64,000 nucleotides of DNA from Clostridiaceae bacterium. Its GTDB lineage: Bacteria > Bacillota > Clostridia > Peptostreptococcales > Tindalliaceae. The stretch spans positions 62,001 through 126,000 of the forward strand of contig JAABSW010000006.1 in the NCBI GenBank assembly GCA_011390155.1, in the 5' to 3' direction. Numbering within the stretch: position 1 is the stretch's first letter; each line of letters opens with the position of its first letter. Shown here piece by piece: positions 56,026 through 64,000 of the stretch. Under the pieces are notes generated by a model, which was not told the DNA's origin, ran no database searches, and saw only the letters and a program-made list of their open reading frames with translations. The position numbers and the translations under genes were made by a program.

Positions 56026-57774
56026 GTGGATAGTTATAAAACGTTACTGCCGTTTGCCAAAAAAAATAAATGGGTCTATTTTTTTGGAGTGCTTTCTCTT
56101 CTAACAGTTGATGCCTTCCAGTTGATGATACCCGAAGTGCTTCGCAGGTTAACAGACAGATTGCAGGCCAACACACTGGATGGTCGCACTTTACTTCAAT
56201 ATGCTCTTTTTACCGTATTTATTGGTGTCATGATCATGGTATTTCGTTATGCATGGCGCATTTTAATCATCAATGCATCACGTCGTTTGGAATACGAGCT
56301 CAGAAATGAACTATTCACTCATTTGCTTAACCTTTCCACCTCCTATTATAGCAGAAAACGAACAGGAGATTTAATGGCTCATGCAACAAATGATATACTG
56401 GCGGTGCGTATGGCTGCCAGCGCCGGTGTCATCACCCTTACCGATGCCCTTTTTCTTAACATTGCCGCCATCACCATGATGCTGCTTACAACCGATGTCA
56501 GGTTAACGTTGGTAGCTCTGGTGCCAATGCCGGTACTTGCTTTCACCATTTACACCTTTGGCAGCGTTATCGGTGTTCAGTTTAAAATAGTGCAAGAGGC
56601 ATTCTCCTCGCTGACTGAAAATGTACAGGAAAACATTTCTGGTATACGAGTTATCAAATCCTTTGCAAGGGAAAACGATGAAATCAACCGTTTTGATGCC
56701 ACCAACCAGGACTTGTTTAAGAAAAACATGAAACTTGCTCTGATCTTTGGCAGTTATCACCCTGGCATCCAGTTTATCTCTGGTATCAGTTATGTTATTA
56801 CACTGGTCTATGGCTCCAGATTGGTGATGAACAGCACCATCTCTCTTGGAGATTTCGTTGCCTTTAATGCCTACCTGGCTTCTCTGGTATGGTCAGTCCC
56901 TGTGATTGGCTTTGTCATTAACATTTTACAACGTGGTGCCGCTTCTTTAACCCGCATTAACCAGGTGATGGCAGAAAAACCTGATATCAATGAACCTGCT
57001 GAACCATTAGCCCTGGAAGAATTCAACGGTCAAATATACTTTGAGAATGTTTCTTTCCGGTATCCTGGCAGTAACGAAGATGCCATTCATCATTTTTCAA
57101 TGACACTGCCTTCCGGGTCAAGCCTTGGTATTATGGGCAAAACCGGCAGCGGTAAAAGCACCATACCGGCTCTTCTTCTTCGGTTGTATGATACGACATC
57201 CGGCACAATTACCGTGGATGGCCTGCCTATCAACCAGGTATCGCTAATGGATTTGCGAAAACAAATTGGGTATGTGGAACAGAACAGCTTTATCTTTTCC
57301 ACTTCAATAGCCGAAAACATCGCTTTTGGGGTGGCCTCCGCCCCAATGGGAGACATTGAAGAAGCTGCTACATTGGCAGGATTACACGATGACATCCTGC
57401 AGTTTCCCAAGGGGTATGAAACCATTGTTGGGGAGAGGGGCGTTACCTTATCCGGCGGACAAAAACAGCGGCTTTCCATCGCCCGTGCATTGCTAAAAAA
57501 CCCTTCAATGCTTATTTTGGATGACGCCTTGTCTGCCGTTGATACACAGACAGAAAAAAACATACTCGATCAGCTAAAAGAAACCATTTCTACCCGCAGC
57601 ACCCTGATCATTGCCCACAGGGTTTCAACCCTTCAGCATTGTGATCAGATAATTGTTTTAGAGAATGGTGTATTGACAGAGTCTGGCACACATGAAGAGC
57701 TAATTCGTTTAAATGGATATTATGCGCGTCAGTACCAACGACAACAATTAGAAGATGAATGGTCTATGGAATAG
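56026..57774 (+). CDS. ABC transporter, fused permease-ATPase
   Basis: TMD plus MGKTGSGKSTIPALLLRL Walker A, LSGGQKQRLSIARALL, LILDDALSAVD. GTG start after GAGGTGA. Confidence 0.95.
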   Translation: MDSYKTLLPFAKKNKWVYFFGVLSLLTVDAFQLMIPEVLRRLTDRLQANTLDGRTLLQYALFTVFIGVMIMVFRYAWRILIINASRRLEYELRNELFTHLLNLSTSYYSRKRTGDLMAHATNDILAVRMAASAGVITLTDALFLNIAAITMMLLTTDVRLTLVALVPMPVLAFTIYTFGSVIGVQFKIVQEAFSSLTENVQENISGIRVIKSFARENDEINRFDATNQDLFKKNMKLALIFGSYHPGIQFISGISYVITLVYGSRLVMNSTISLGDFVAFNAYLASLVWSVPVIGFVINILQRGAASLTRINQVMAEKPDINEPAEPLALEEFNGQIYFENVSFRYPGSNEDAIHHFSMTLPSGSSLGIMGKTGSGKSTIPALLLRLYDTTSGTITVDGLPINQVSLMDLRKQIGYVEQNSFIFSTSIAENIAFGVASAPMGDIEEAATLAGLHDDILQFPKGYETIVGERGVTLSGGQKQRLSIARALLKNPSMLILDDALSAVDTQTEKNILDQLKETISTRSTLIIAHRVSTLQHCDQIIVLENGVLTESGTHEELIRLNGYYARQYQRQQLEDEWSME

Positions 57775-57786
57775 GAGCTGTCAACA

Positions 57787-59736
57787 ATGAATGAATTTCA
57801 TGAAGAGGAAAAACTTGAAAAAACCTATGACAGTCGGCTCATGATGCGTTTGTTGAGCTATGCCCGGCCCTATCTTGCGATTATTGTTCTATGCATTGTG
57901 TTGTTAGGACTTATTGCCGCAACCGATCTGGCTCAACCCTATCTTTTTAAAATTGCCATCGATGACCATCTTAACTATGCTGAAAAAATCTATCAACTGG
58001 ATGAAGAAACCGCTCCACACTTCACAGGTTATGATGTCTCTGAAGAAATAACCATTTTTCGCGAAGACAGCCAACTGCACTTTGTTGCAGAGGACGGTTC
58101 AAAGATACCACTGAACGAAAATGCTTCATCCGCCTTGCGGCAGCAAGACCACCAAGCAGTGATTGAATTGGCATTTATACTGGTTATGATATTGATGGCA
58201 GGGTTGTTGATGAATTTCGTTCAGGTATATCTCCTTAATTATGCAAGCAACCGTATTATCATGACCATACGACACCAGCTTTTCGGCCATTTACAACGCA
58301 TGTCCCAATCATTTTTCGACCGGCAGCCTGTAGGACGGCTGGTCACCCGTGTCACCAACGACACCGAAACCCTCCACGAAATGTACACCAGTGTACTGGT
58401 AAATCTGTTTAAAGACGTGTTCCTGTTAATTGGCATTGTGGTGATCATGCTGGGACTGGATGTGCGCCTGGCGCTGGTGTCATTCAGCCTGCTTCCCTTG
58501 ATTTTACTGGCCACCTGGTTCTTTCGGTCTCGCGTGAGAGAAGCTTACCGAGAAGTCAGGCTGCGTATGGCTAAAATCAATACCAGCCTCAATGAAAACC
58601 TTTCAGGAATGCGCACCATCCATGTGTACCGACAGGAACAACAACAGTTTAATCGCTTTGATGTAGTTAATGCTTCTTACCTGGAAGCCAACAAAAAAGA
58701 AAACCAGATATCTTCCGTCTTTAGGCCAGCGGTGGAATTGATCGGTTCACTGGCACTGGCACTGGTTGTTTATTTTGGAGGACACCAGGTATTGGCAGGT
58801 CGTATTGAATTTGGTGTGTTATTCGCTTTCATTAACTATATACGACAATTTTTTCAACCCATAAACAACCTGACAGAAAAATACAATATCCTGCAATCTG
58901 CCATGGCTTCTTCAGAACGAATATTTCAACTAATAGACAAAGAACCTGAGATTGAAGATTCACCAGATGCACAGACAATCAGTTCCTTAACCGGCCAAAT
59001 CAACTTTGATCACGTCTGGTTTGCTTATAATAAAAATGAATGGATCCTAAAGGACATTGATTTTAATGTTAAACCCGGTGAGTCCATTGCTTTTGTGGGC
59101 GCCACCGGCGCTGGAAAAACGTCTCTCATTCATCTCATTGCCAGGTTTTATGATATCCAGAAAGGCAGTATTCAACTGGATGGTGTCGATATCCGGGATA
59201 TCCGACAAGAAAACTTACGGCGACAAATAGGTATTGTGCTGCAAGATGTGTTTTTATTCTCAGGCAGTGTGGCAGACAACATAAGCCTTAACCATTCTGA
59301 CTTGTCAAGAGATCAGATCATTTCCATTGCCAAAGAAGTTAATGCGCATGGGTTTATCGAAAAGCTACCTTTGGGCTATGACCAACCCGTGATGGAACGG
59401 GGCAATAACTTTTCAACAGGTCAACAACAATTGATTTCCTTTGCCAGGACACTGGCAGCCAATCCATCCATATTGGTATTGGATGAGGCCACTGCACACA
59501 TCGACGCAGAAACGGAAGATTTAATACAAAAAGCGATCCCACGTCTGATGGAAGGCCGAACCACCATCGCCATTGCCCATCGTTTATCCACCATACAGCA
59601 TTGCGACCGGATCATCGTTCTTCACAGAGGCGAAATTGTTGAAACGGGAACACATCAGGAACTATTGAAAAAACGTGGTTACTACTATCGACTTTACCAA
59701 CTTCAAGTTCACTCTTCAGACGCCATTGTTTCTTAA
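57787..59736 (+). CDS. ABC transporter, fused permease-ATPase (partner of upstream gene)
   Basis: TMD plus FVGATGAGKTSLIHLIARF; FSTGQQQLISFARTLAANPSILVLDEATAHID. Confidence 0.95.
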   Translation: MNEFHEEEKLEKTYDSRLMMRLLSYARPYLAIIVLCIVLLGLIAATDLAQPYLFKIAIDDHLNYAEKIYQLDEETAPHFTGYDVSEEITIFREDSQLHFVAEDGSKIPLNENASSALRQQDHQAVIELAFILVMILMAGLLMNFVQVYLLNYASNRIIMTIRHQLFGHLQRMSQSFFDRQPVGRLVTRVTNDTETLHEMYTSVLVNLFKDVFLLIGIVVIMLGLDVRLALVSFSLLPLILLATWFFRSRVREAYREVRLRMAKINTSLNENLSGMRTIHVYRQEQQQFNRFDVVNASYLEANKKENQISSVFRPAVELIGSLALALVVYFGGHQVLAGRIEFGVLFAFINYIRQFFQPINNLTEKYNILQSAMASSERIFQLIDKEPEIEDSPDAQTISSLTGQINFDHVWFAYNKNEWILKDIDFNVKPGESIAFVGATGAGKTSLIHLIARFYDIQKGSIQLDGVDIRDIRQENLRRQIGIVLQDVFLFSGSVADNISLNHSDLSRDQIISIAKEVNAHGFIEKLPLGYDQPVMERGNNFSTGQQQLISFARTLAANPSILVLDEATAHIDAETEDLIQKAIPRLMEGRTTIAIAHRLSTIQHCDRIIVLHRGEIVETGTHQELLKKRGYYYRLYQLQVHSSDAIVS

Positions 59737-59789
59737 CTTTCCACAGAACATCCACCGAAGATTGCTGCAAGCTTTTATTTGTAACATGC

Positions 59790-59834
59790 AAAAGCGCCTC
59801 CACCCTTATTGAAAAAAGGTTAGAGGCGCTTTTT
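59790..59834. terminator. Bidirectional terminator
   Basis: AAAAGCGCCTC...GAGGCGCTTTTT between the convergent ABC transporter gene and the small Cys-rich ORF. Confidence 0.85.
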
Positions 59835-59850
59835 GTTATTGTCATTTAAT

Positions 59851-59991
59851 TTAGCTTTCCTGCATTAATGTTCGTTCCTGCAATTCACATGTATCCAAGG
59901 AACACGAACCCATAACTCGGTGAATGCATGTAATTACGCCACATTCTTGTTTTTTAATGTTTTTTTCGTTCTTCTTATCCGTTGTTTTCAC
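59851..59991 (-). CDS. 46-aa cysteine-rich small protein (possibly DUF1540-like), not in ORF track
   Basis: GTG start after GGAGGA: (M)KTTDKKNEKNIKKQECGVITCIHRVMGSCSLDTCELQERTLMQES. Promoter TTGACA-N18-TATAAT upstream, terminator downstream. Confidence 0.72.
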   Translation of the reverse strand: MKTTDKKNEKNIKKQECGVITCIHRVMGSCSLDTCELQERTLMQES

Positions 59992-60028
59992 GTGTACTTC
60001 CTCCTTCAAAATGAAACTTTATGGATTT

Positions 60029-60058
60029 ATTATAGCAGAATCAGGTTTTGTCTGTCAA
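60029..60058 (-). promoter_or_regulatory. Consensus sigma-A promoter of the small Cys-rich ORF
   Basis: Minus strand TTGACA (60053-60058), 18-nt spacer, TATAAT (60029-60034). Confidence 0.8.
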
Positions 60059-60257
60059 CTGAATTATGAAATTTATTTTATTCATCCTTCATTTTTAACG
60101 GTTTTCTGTGAACGTTTAAATGCAAACGTTTTCACTCCATTGTTAAGGCGCGATACTTTCATTGGTTTGATGTTATTGCAAGATTTCTTTCTTATATTTC
60201 TTTTTGACAATTATCCACCCTCCATGTACAATGAGATAAAATGAAAGGAGTTTGATC

Positions 60258-61064
60258 ATGTTCGACTTTCACGTTCACACACATCATTCCTTCGATGCAT
60301 CTCACCCTGCTGATGAATTGGTTGAAAAAGCCATCCAGCTAGGGCTTACTCATATCTGTCTGACAGACCACATAGATTACGATTATGATGGCGAAGGAAG
60401 TGAGTTTTCATTTTCATATCAACAATTCTTTGACGAACTCACCCGCGTACGTCAAACGTATCGCAACAAGATTAATATTTTGGCTGGTGTCGAATTTGGC
60501 ATGCAACCCCATGTTATCAAAGAATATGTGCGCGATGCAGATACATGGCCTTTTGACTACATCATTGGCTCTTTGCACAGTGTAAATAAGACAGACATCT
60601 ATACCGGTTCTTATTTCAAAACCAGAAACCAACAACAGGCTTATGTTGACTATTTTGATGATATGCTTCAGATTGTCAAAGCAAATGCCCCATTTAATGC
60701 CCTGGGTCATTTTGACATGATTAAGCGTTATGGTTCATTTGATACGTCTCTACCATTGAAAGATTATCAGGAGATCGCCACCACCATTTTTAAAACTCTC
60801 ATTCCTCAAGGAAAGGGCATCGAAGTAAACACATCCGGTTATCGATACGACTTGGGAGATGCTCATCCTTCACTCGATATTCTTAAACTGTACCGAGAGT
60901 GTGGCGGTGAAATTGTGGTGCTTGGCTCTGATGCCCACGCGACAACAGATATTGCCTACAAACTGAAAGATGTACTGGTCAACCTCCATGATTTGGGTTA
61001 TCAATACGTATCAACATTCAAGAACAGACAGCCGGAATTTCATAAAATTGAAAAACTTCTATAA
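60258..61064 (+). CDS. PHP-domain histidinol-phosphatase-like hydrolase
   Basis: FDFHVHTHHSFDA; LTDHIDYDYDG; VEFGMQPH; ALGHFDMIKRYG; LGSDAHATTDI. ATG after AAAGGAG. Confidence 0.92.
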   Translation: MFDFHVHTHHSFDASHPADELVEKAIQLGLTHICLTDHIDYDYDGEGSEFSFSYQQFFDELTRVRQTYRNKINILAGVEFGMQPHVIKEYVRDADTWPFDYIIGSLHSVNKTDIYTGSYFKTRNQQQAYVDYFDDMLQIVKANAPFNALGHFDMIKRYGSFDTSLPLKDYQEIATTIFKTLIPQGKGIEVNTSGYRYDLGDAHPSLDILKLYRECGGEIVVLGSDAHATTDIAYKLKDVLVNLHDLGYQYVSTFKNRQPEFHKIEKLL

Positions 61065-61083
61065 GAAACACTTATAAAAAAAC

Positions 61084-61121
61084 GAGCAGCCGAATGGGCA
61101 CATAACCCACTACAGCTGCTC
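61084..61121. terminator. Terminator between convergent PHP and TIM-barrel genes
   Basis: GAGCAGCCGAATGGGCACATAACCCACTACAGCTGCTC inverted repeat. Confidence 0.75.
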
Positions 61122-61160
61122 ATTTGTTTGTTATCATGGATTATATCCCCATGCTGCAGA

Positions 61161-61850
61161 CTAATCCAAACGATATTTTTTCATCGACTCCGTAAAAATT
61201 TCTCCTGTGGAAGGTGGCGTAAAAGTGATGGCATTGGCCCCAGCCTCAATGGTTTTTCGGATGCTTTCATTGGAATTACCACCGGTGGCAATGATGGGCA
61301 CTGTCTTACTGATGTCCTGCCTGATCTTTCTGACGATGTCTGCCGTTTGGGCAGCTCCGGAAACGTTAAAAACATCCGTGCCTGCTTCCAATCGCCCCAG
61401 GAAGTCATCGTTTAAAGTGGTCACCGTGATCACTACAGGTATATCGATGATTTCCTTCAGCTCACTGATAATTTCATTCGGTGTGGGTTTGTTCAGAACA
61501 ACGCCAATGGCACCTTGAAATTCAGCATGGAGGGCAATGTTCAATGATCGTTTTCCCGTGGTAATCCCACCGCCAACACCGCAAAAAACCGGTACGTCTG
61601 ATGCCAGTAACAATGCCTGGGAAATAACCAATTGGGGCGTAAAAGGATAAACTGCAATCACTGCATCTGCATTTGTATTTTTTATGATGGCAACATCCGT
61701 ACTAAAAAGGATGGATTTGATGCGTTTACCAAAGATTTTGATACCACTGGCATCAGCTATACAGGCAGGCAGTTCAATAAAATTGCTTCGCAGTGTTCCT
61801 CTAATTTCAGGAATAAACTTTTCTTTCTTCGTTCCATTCTGATTATCCAT
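61161..61850 (-). CDS. TIM-barrel-like protein of unknown function
   Basis: Repeating beta/alpha pattern; GAIGVVLNKPTPNEIISELKEIIDIPVVITVTT; PIIATGGNSNESIRKTIEAGANAITFTPP resembles a C-terminal phosphate-binding loop. Start taken as MDNQNGTKKEK. Confidence 0.75.
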   Translation of the reverse strand: MDNQNGTKKEKFIPEIRGTLRSNFIELPACIADASGIKIFGKRIKSILFSTDVAIIKNTNADAVIAVYPFTPQLVISQALLLASDVPVFCGVGGGITTGKRSLNIALHAEFQGAIGVVLNKPTPNEIISELKEIIDIPVVITVTTLNDDFLGRLEAGTDVFNVSGAAQTADIVRKIRQDISKTVPIIATGGNSNESIRKTIEAGANAITFTPPSTGEIFTESMKKYRLD

Positions 61851-61888
61851 GATACTGTACGCCCCCTTTATTCTCAAATCCATGATTC

Positions 61889-62518
61889 TTACTCGTATTT
61901 ATCGAACAAATCATGCAAAGCTTCCCTTAGCAAACCAGCTTCAGTCTTGTCCAATGTACGTGACAGCTGGTTTAACTGTTCAGCTGTTCCCCTTTTTAAC
62001 ATCACTCTTTTTTCTACCCAAACATCATTTTGAGCTCGCCGAACCCGGTTTTTCCCTTGCTTTTTTGCCTGATTCAAGGCGGTGCCCACTGCATCCATCA
62101 ATTGTTCAGGTGTTTTGCCATTTTCTGGAAAGGAGGCCACTCCCGCTGAAAACTGAATGCCGATTTCCTTTGCAGGATCCCCTACCAGCAGCAAGTGCTC
62201 ATCAAAATAGGCACGGATCTCCTCAATCATTAGAACGCCTGTTTCGCCACCAGTGGAGTTCATCAACACAGCAAATTCGTCTTTATAGGTTCGGCAAACA
62301 AGTGTTTCTTTGTTAAGATTGTTGACCAATACATGGGCCAGTTTTCGAATGACCTGGTCGCCAATGTATTCACCATAAAATCGGTTAACTGTTTCAAAAT
62401 TATCAATGTCCAGTTTGGCGATGGTCACTTCATTTGAATAGGTGTTCATCATATCTTTTACGGCTTCCATGAATTCTTTCTCTGTGATCAGTCCTTCAAT
62501 GGTTTTAATCACAACCAT
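61889..62518 (-). CDS. Degenerate GGDEF domain fused to a C-terminal ribbon-helix-helix-like domain
   Basis: IAKLDIDNFETVNRFYGEYIGDQVIRKLAHVL; signature CRTYKDEFAVLM (YKDEF instead of GGDEF); FSAGVASFPENGKTPEQLMDAVGTALNQAKKQGKNRV; then VEKRVMLKRGTAEQLNQLSRTLDKTEAGLLREALHDLFDKYE. Confidence 0.85.
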   Translation of the reverse strand: MVVIKTIEGLITEKEFMEAVKDMMNTYSNEVTIAKLDIDNFETVNRFYGEYIGDQVIRKLAHVLVNNLNKETLVCRTYKDEFAVLMNSTGGETGVLMIEEIRAYFDEHLLLVGDPAKEIGIQFSAGVASFPENGKTPEQLMDAVGTALNQAKKQGKNRVRRAQNDVWVEKRVMLKRGTAEQLNQLSRTLDKTEAGLLREALHDLFDKYE

Positions 62519-62604
62519 CCACCTCCCATGATGCATTGATTCCGCCTATTAATACCCTTACTTATTATGTTCACACAGGTTATGTTGAGCACTCCTGTCC
62601 TCCC

Positions 62605-62686
62605 GTTACCCATGACTGCCACCGCTATGGCTCTCTCTTCTGCAAGAGGGAGATAAGCGGTGCTACGTCCCTAGGTGAACAAACTA
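62605..62686 (+). repeat. Dispersed hairpin repeat, copy B
   Basis: GTTACCCATGACTGCCACCGCTATGGCTCTCTCTTCTGCAAGAGGGAGATAAGCGGTGCTACGTCCCTAGGTGAACAAACTA; aligns with copy A (13800..13878, minus). Confidence 0.8.
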
Positions 62687-63124
62687 GTCTTTTGCCATTA
62701 CCTCTATGCTGTCACCTTCTTTAATGGTGCCGCCTTTTAGTACACGGGTAAAAATACCTTCTCTGGGCATCACACAATCGCCAACTTTCTTGAAGATCTC
62801 GCATCCATGATGGCATTTTTTCCCAATTTGAGTGACTTCCTGTATGGTCTCACCCACTTGCAGTTTTGTCCCGATGGGCAATTCGTATAATACGATGCCT
62901 TCTGTCAAAATGTTTTCAGCAAAAATACCTGCTTCAAGGTTATCTATACCCAGGGCTTTAATTTTATCCACACTCTCTTGCCCTAACAGACTGACCTGCC
63001 GATGCCAGTCTCCCGCATGTGCATCGTCCTGTAAACCATGATTTTCTAAAAACATTCCTTCTTTAACCGGTGTTTTAATGACACCTTTTTCCCGACTGAT
63101 ATTGACTGCCAGTACCTTTGCCAT
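62684..63124 (-). CDS. MOSC domain protein
   Basis: AVNISREKGVIKTPVKEGMFLENHGLQDDAHAGDWHRQVSLLGQESVDKIK...GKKCHHGCEIFKKVGDCVMPREGIFTRVL. Confidence 0.94.
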   Translation of the reverse strand: MAKVLAVNISREKGVIKTPVKEGMFLENHGLQDDAHAGDWHRQVSLLGQESVDKIKALGIDNLEAGIFAENILTEGIVLYELPIGTKLQVGETIQEVTQIGKKCHHGCEIFKKVGDCVMPREGIFTRVLKGGTIKEGDSIEVMAKD

Positions 63125-63235
63125 AACTATTTCCTCCCTGATTTCACAACCTTTTCAATGCTATGTCCAGGTTGTTACATTTTAATTGATTTTATTATTT
63201 CATTTTACCATATAAGTCAATTCAACGTATCTGGT

Positions 63236-64000
63236 TTACAAGCTGATCTTTTCGATTTTACCTGCTTCTGATAAATCATAACCACCCAGTTCATTGACAA
63301 TTTTGTGAAAATCCGGATGTTGAATGACAGTCAACAGTTCTTGCAGCGCAGGTGTTTCCAATAGATGTGCTTCGCAAAGCAAGTCATAATCTTCCCAGTC
63401 CAGGTGAAGAAAATCCAGGTCCATGGAGACAGCCGCTGAGGCCACTCCCATTCCACAGTCGGCACTTCCACTTTTCACTGCCACTGCCACTGCCATGTGT
63501 GTTGTCATCTCCCGGTGATAACCCTGCAATGATTCAGCAGACAAACCTTCTCTTTTCAAGTAATAGTCCAGTAAAATTCTTGTACCTGCTCCCTTTTGCC
63601 GGTTCACCATGGATACATCTTTTCGGGCTAAATCGGCAATACCAGTGATTCTTTTAGGGTTTCCAGGGGCCAGCATCAAGCCCTGGCTCCGCTTCACCAG
63701 CTTGATCAAGGCCATTTCTTTCCCCGGGAAATACGTTTTTATCACTTGGTGGTTATAGGTGCCTGTTGCTTCATCCAATAAATGGACAGGGGCTACGTGA
63801 CATTCTCCCTGGCGCAGGGCAATCACACCGCCCATGCTGCCAGTATGAGCGGAAGACAGGGCCACGCCACTCCCCTGACTTTGCAGTTCGTTGGCCAGTA
63901 AATCCATCACCAGGTCGTGGCTGCCAATGGATACCAATGTGTTTTGTATCTCCGACATAGGTCTGGCAAGCCGCACAGGGACCACCGTACCTTTTTCATA
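63236..64000 (-). CDS. C-terminal PBP-like domain, probably of a MoeA-fused molybdopterin biosynthesis protein (5' end beyond window)
   Basis: Frame stays open to the right edge (YEKGTVVPVRLARPMSEIQ...); PBP-type sequence SAHTGSMGGVIALRQGECHVAPVHLLDEATGTYN...VNRQKGAGTRILLDYYLKREGL; next to MOSC. Confidence 0.8.
   Translation of the reverse strand, partial: YEKGTVVPVRLARPMSEIQNTLVSIGSHDLVMDLLANELQSQGSGVALSSAHTGSMGGVIALRQGECHVAPVHLLDEATGTYNHQVIKTYFPGKEMALIKLVKRSQGLMLAPGNPKRITGIADLARKDVSMVNRQKGAGTRILLDYYLKREGLSAESLQGYHREMTTHMAVAVAVKSGSADCGMGVASAAVSMDLDFLHLDWEDYDLLCEAHLLETPALQELLTVIQHPDFHKIVNELGGYDLSEAGKIEKISL

Follow-up and report, generated by a model that had tools for sequence, protein, structure and literature searches.

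Degenerate GGDEF domains are common and are usually annotated as diguanylate cyclases; to our knowledge, few of them have a known output. One receptor type, represented by PopA and PelD, binds c-di-GMP at the I-site. The degenerate GGDEF domain of FimX from Pseudomonas aeruginosa senses GTP (PMC8846402). Among ribbon-helix-helix (RHH) proteins, CdbA from Myxococcus xanthus, a stand-alone protein of 67 aa confined to the Myxococcales, binds DNA in a manner that responds to c-di-GMP (PMC7156744), and the trifunctional PutA from Escherichia coli carries an RHH domain and acts as an autogenous repressor (PMC5293562). No description of a fusion between GGDEF and ribbon-helix-helix/CopG domains was found in the largely open-access literature searched, and the GGDEF-RHH architecture is apparently undescribed.

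We analyzed a 64,000-nucleotide stretch of clostridial DNA, named here the window, whose minus strand carries a gene of this architecture. It is a genuine conserved fusion: a small bacterial protein composed of a degenerate GGDEF domain and a C-terminal RHH tail of ~45 aa. The maximal open frame (61889-62536) comprises 215 aa, and the probable extent of the gene (61889..62512), beginning at a GTG codon, 207 aa. The sequence-only reading had started the protein at ATG 62518, probably two codons too early. A Shine-Dalgarno-like GGGAGGTGG (62519..62527, minus strand) abuts this ATG, its GGGAGG lying 3 nt before the ATG and ~9 nt before the GTG, and the same arrangement is present in L069 from the same genus. 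Read from GTG 62512, the protein begins with M-I-K-T-I-E-G, matching the N termini of its relatives, which start with M-I-K; this start and the spacing of GGGAGGTGG make the GTG the more probable choice. The GGDEF domain extends over aa 19-164 of the maximal frame (62045..62482, minus strand), and the tail over aa 174-215 (61892..62017, minus strand), with a strand EKRVML, a helix A (aa 182-194), and a helix B (aa 199-214). A search with the tail profile found this tail in a single copy in the window's genome. Comparison with the same-genus orthologue gave dN/dS values of ~0.08 for the GGDEF part and ~0.11 for the tail, indicating that both are under strong purifying selection.

The GGDEF domain is readily recognized by PF00990, with 91.7 bits against a cut-off of 23.8. 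The AlphaFold2 model of the whole chain (mean pLDDT 83.8) shows the GGDEF fold followed, after a flexible linker, by two helices (model residues 181-193 and 198-213), and the top Foldseek matches of the domain are PleD (9g86, E 3.2e-14) and other GGDEF structures (3ign, E 1.1e-13, r.m.s. deviation 2.0). Both signature glycines are lost and the metal-binding aspartates kept, in line with the sequence-only reading: the window protein reads R-T-Y-K-D-E-F, with YKDEF (62273..62287, minus strand) replacing GGDEF, and D43 and D86 are present. We counted residue retention over 45 aligned intact family members, at the positions equivalent to N335, D344, D327, E370, K442, and the I-site of PleD. The Gly-Gly pair is intact in 2/45 members, while the guanine-contact residues N335 and D344 are each kept in 42/45, the metal ligand D327 in 40/45, the second ligand, E370, as Asp in 44/45, and the phosphate lysine K442 in 44/45; L088 lacks both the Asn and the Asp of the guanine contacts. 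Retention of the guanine, metal, and phosphate residues together with loss of the glycines is what one expects of a pseudo-enzyme that binds a nucleotide and not of simple decay, and from this selective retention we infer that the protein may respond to a nucleotide. With the Gly-Gly loop lost, the domain probably does not synthesize c-di-GMP.

The glycines also bear on the alternative that the protein is an active or once-active diguanylate cyclase, its RHH tail being mainly a dimerization or DNA-tethering module. Such a role has a precedent in the leucine zipper engineered into the WspR GGDEF domain to force its dimerization (structure 3i5c); moreover, RIGGDEF is kept in the two members with intact glycines and many others carry [HAS]GDEF, so that, judging by their signatures, some members might still be enzymes. 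We nevertheless consider this alternative distinctly unlikely for the family, because xK replaces the Gly-Gly pair in all members of the window's GTDB family and its sister family, and because the first metal aspartate is lost in five members and the second in one. The two members with RIGGDEF, L112 and L204, are GC-rich, and in them the RHH tail may be attached to an active cyclase.

A second alternative, that c-di-GMP bound at the RxxD I-site controls the RHH tail, as in PopA or PelD, is unlikely. In its favor, RxxD occurs at the canonical spacing in 11 members of the window's family and its sister (RTND, RSND, RQDD, and others), and the window's genome has 31 GGDEF matches, so that c-di-GMP is probably present in the cell. 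The I-site positions, however, are under much looser constraint than the guanine-nucleotide pocket, with Arg in 11/45 and Asp in 31/45 members, and the window protein and its genus lack RxxD at its place five residues ahead of the GGDEF motif, where the window protein reads NKET. For a genome of 2.7 Mb, 31 GGDEF matches constitute a large c-di-GMP repertoire.

The last ~45 residues, which the sequence-only reading had likened to an RHH domain, were compared with known families and folds. The window tail (aa 174-215) matches Antitox_RHH with 22.7-22.8 bits (E 1e-4, below the cut-off of 27.2) and RHH_3 with 18.8-19.0 bits (E 1.4e-3 to 1.6e-3, below the cut-off of 21.6). Its homologues match better: 34/37 tails, taken from two overlapping alignments (20/22 order-level and 14/15 diverse tails, matching both models), are recognized by RHH_3/Antitox_RHH, with a best E-value of 1.8e-8, and the tail of the first member of alignment A3 passes the RHH_3 cut-off with 25.9 bits against 21.6. 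The match of the window tail is thus suggestive alone and, as sequence evidence, convincing with its homologues. A phylum-wide search with the tail profile also recovers stand-alone CopG-like proteins of ~90 aa that align without gaps, strand included; searched against PDB sequences, the tail profiles gave no clear relative, the best RHH protein being a CopG regulator at E 0.31.

Modeled alone with AlphaFold, the tail forms the same two helices as in the whole-chain model, and its first ~20 PDB matches in Foldseek are all RHH domains, with r.m.s. deviations mostly of 1.0-1.5 Å and E-values of 0.12 or worse, weak owing to the shortness of the query (47 residues). The closest folds are the RHH domain of PutA (2ay0; probability 0.99, r.m.s. 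deviation 1.1 Å), followed by StnY, CopASO, CopG, and AmrZ. DSSP assigns no strand in the single-chain models, and the ribbon itself, which forms only in the dimer, is beyond what they can show. In these models the tail resembles RHH domains and not a plain GGDEF C-terminal helix, a structure that would have spoken against the earlier proposal. The homologues, for their part, retain the tail and conserve it better than the GGDEF part: mean pairwise identity over 45 members is 55% for the tail versus 41% for the GGDEF part, among pairs whose GGDEF identity is <35% the tail is the more conserved in 93%, and the helix-B sequence DKTEAxLLREAL is almost fixed within the order.

Antitox_RHH being the best Pfam match of the window tail, and the neighboring genes varying among lineages, one may ask whether the tail serves protein-protein contacts or is of antitoxin type, the whole protein being an adaptor and not a promoter-specific regulator. 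This is very unlikely in our view: no toxin-like gene was seen adjacent to the gene, the strand residues align gaplessly with those of CopG-like proteins, and an element exists at the gene's own promoter, as described below.

The family-wide architecture search that had been suggested reveals a fusion that is recurrent but patchy across the phylum. In the window's GTDB family, 7/7 genomes carry one copy each of an orthologue, at 51-86% identity where it is not the window protein itself; a named relative is that of Anoxynatronum buryatiense (NZ_FXUF01000001, 63%). The fusion also occurs in 16 genomes of the sister family from the same order, in 10/58 genomes of another order of the class, and in 9/154 genomes of a more distant, partly GC-rich class. 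It is rare elsewhere, with the tail profile matched in 11/391 class-level draws and a GGDEF-length frame bearing the tail in a few of 399 phylum-level draws. In a scan of viral contigs, the sole match was one distant GGDEF domain at 26% identity. At L202 (G1113:C75), the RHH tail is open and the GGDEF part does not lie in one frame, which reflects either a disrupted copy or an assembly error.

An autorepressor needs an operator-like sequence overlapping the promoter of its own gene. In an unbiased count of upstream 8-mers, ACATATAT ranks first, being present in 18/36 members versus 7/252 control upstream regions taken at the same loci, with nominal p-values that come out too small because of the phylogenetic relatedness of the rows. 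In the sister family, TGAATA-N11-TGGGTACATATA precedes the gene in most members. With 0-1 mismatch, all its matches in 13 genomes of this family lie at the GGDEF-RHH gene and weaker matches stay at the control level; a version with an N12 spacer, in effect an unplanned negative control, gave background counts only. Exact copies of the core TGGGTACATATAWA number 12 in these 13 genomes and 0 in reversed controls; ten stand at the GGDEF-RHH promoter, and the other two fall within coding regions or at their ends. In another order, that of genome G280, TTGACATATATATA-N4-TTTGATA lies ahead of the gene; it amounts to an ATATATAT core located between the -35 and -10 boxes, and this core is conserved between genera while its flanks are not. 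At 0-1 mismatch the pattern is found only at the GGDEF-RHH promoter, in 9/10 carrier genomes, the tenth having two mismatches, and in 0/10 non-carriers. Distant members carry palindromic forms, for example TGTATATATATGTTAACATATATATACA in L088 and CATATATGATACACATATATG in the GC-rich L113, and some members outside the window's family, such as L085 and L111, gave no match to the element. The predicted footprint of the protein in the relatives' own upstream regions would lie over TGGGTACATATAT / TTGACATATATAT.

As the conserved element overlaps the -35/-10 promoter, its conservation could partly reflect promoter constraint. Taken to its limit, this would make the element merely an unusual promoter recognized by a sigma factor, and the protein a decaying diguanylate cyclase with an unimportant tail; in the order of G280 the element indeed sits between TTGACA and TATAAT-like boxes. 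Such an explanation is highly improbable, because conservation across genera extends to the spacer, because the element, in contrast to sigma promoters, hardly recurs within a genome, and because both parts of the protein are under strong purifying selection, the tail being even better conserved than the GGDEF part. A reading of the sister-family element as a sigma-G/F/B promoter was set aside for the same near uniqueness. Strict element patterns revealed no regulon beyond the own promoter in the genomes searched. A second conserved block, GAATATTTATTG ... GTAATAAT, was seen in the sister family (L052-L066) on the spoVB side of the intergenic region, read toward the divergent SpoVB/MurJ-like gene; it is perhaps the sporulation promoter of that gene.

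In the window's own family, ACATATAT is found upstream of 0/7 members, the window included. The sequence-only reading had predicted DNA binding near the own promoter: the relatives favor it, with a candidate operator at that place, and the window's genus, from which the element is absent, does not. GGGTA is present upstream in 6/7 family members versus 6/50 controls, and GGGTATTAATA (62547..62557, minus strand), which includes the GGGTA common to most upstream regions of both families, is a possible, weak counterpart of the relatives' element. The DNA-reading strand differs too, EKRVMLK in this family having replaced LKSNYYT, and the upstream sequence of the window's genus has also diverged, suggestive of a joint change of operator and strand between lineages in which the operator of this family is putative.

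The gene row of the window's family consists of moeA-type genes, a MOSC protein, the GGDEF-RHH gene, and a conserved 240-aa protein. In the window, the molybdopterin genes lie directly upstream on the minus strand (62684-64000), in a block conserved in the family: a MOSC-domain protein (PF03473, 62684..63124) and a MoeA-type molybdopterin biosynthesis protein with a C-terminal PBP_like part (63236..64000). Downstream, the gene for the 240-aa protein (61161..61883, minus strand) adjoins the GGDEF-RHH gene in both families and is probably in the same operon. The 240-aa protein belongs to no Pfam or NCBIfam family, and our searches gave no convincing relative among solved structures; by eye it is TIM-barrel-like (...GVGGGITTGKRS...), and it is strongly conserved in two families of the order. 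In the sister family, the block is broken by a divergent gene for a Polysacc_synt/MatE-family (SpoVB/MurJ-like) transporter, and most genomes (L052-L067) carry, downstream of the GGDEF-RHH gene, a cysteine-rich, zinc-ribbon-like protein of ~80 aa without a Pfam family. In other lineages the neighbors are unrelated, so that the function cannot be read from them. Control of molybdenum-cofactor genes was rejected as the general function, the moeA/MOSC neighbors being missing in other lineages, and is possible as a local role in the window's lineage. Rfam detected no RNA element in 57000-64000.

The reading that we favor, with slightly better than even confidence, is that of a one-component, guanine-nucleotide-responsive RHH regulator acting at its own promoter. 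The C-terminal segment would dimerize and read DNA, mainly an operator overlapping the promoter of its own gene, with negative autoregulation as the most likely sign of control. The GGDEF pocket would still take a guanine nucleotide and Mg2+, most likely GTP, with GDP or (p)ppGpp as possible ligands. Dimerization of the RHH segment would bring two such pockets together, and nucleotide binding could then alter the geometry or spacing of the GGDEF pair and change the affinity for DNA at the own promoter. A broader proposal, which we offer tentatively as plausible rather than probable, is that these proteins form an unrecognized phylum-wide family of one-component regulators in which a pseudo-cyclase senses the GTP or (p)ppGpp level and directly sets how the attached RHH domain binds at the promoter of its own gene, and perhaps at a small number of others, with operator and strand coevolving between lineages. 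If true, a guanine nucleotide would be sensed directly at the level of transcription in Firmicutes, by an architecture absent from the literature searched. Here the output domain belongs to the same small chain and a probable DNA target can be named for the relatives, which turns the question of what a dead GGDEF domain senses into a simple EMSA or footprint assay that takes a single ~210-aa protein and a single site of ~30 bp.

Compared with known systems, the window protein shares with PleD and the canonical diguanylate cyclases the fold and the guanine, metal, and phosphate residues, and differs from them by loss of the Gly-Gly loop and the I-site, absence of a receiver or sensor domain, and addition of the RHH tail. 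The RHH_3, Antitox_RHH, and CopG families consist of small stand-alone proteins; homologous tails match their profiles, and the tail aligns gaplessly with stand-alone CopG-like proteins. A degenerate GGDEF domain is common to FimX and the window protein, the output being an EAL domain in the former and the RHH tail in the latter. PutA is an enzyme fused to an RHH domain, that which gave the top fold match of the tail, but its RHH domain is N-terminal on a flavoenzyme, whereas that of the window protein is C-terminal on a pseudo-cyclase. CdbA shares with the window protein the link, proposed for the latter, between an RHH DNA-binding fold and a guanine second messenger; CdbA itself binds c-di-GMP, whereas the window protein is a 207-aa fusion with a separate N-terminal GGDEF domain, from another phylum.
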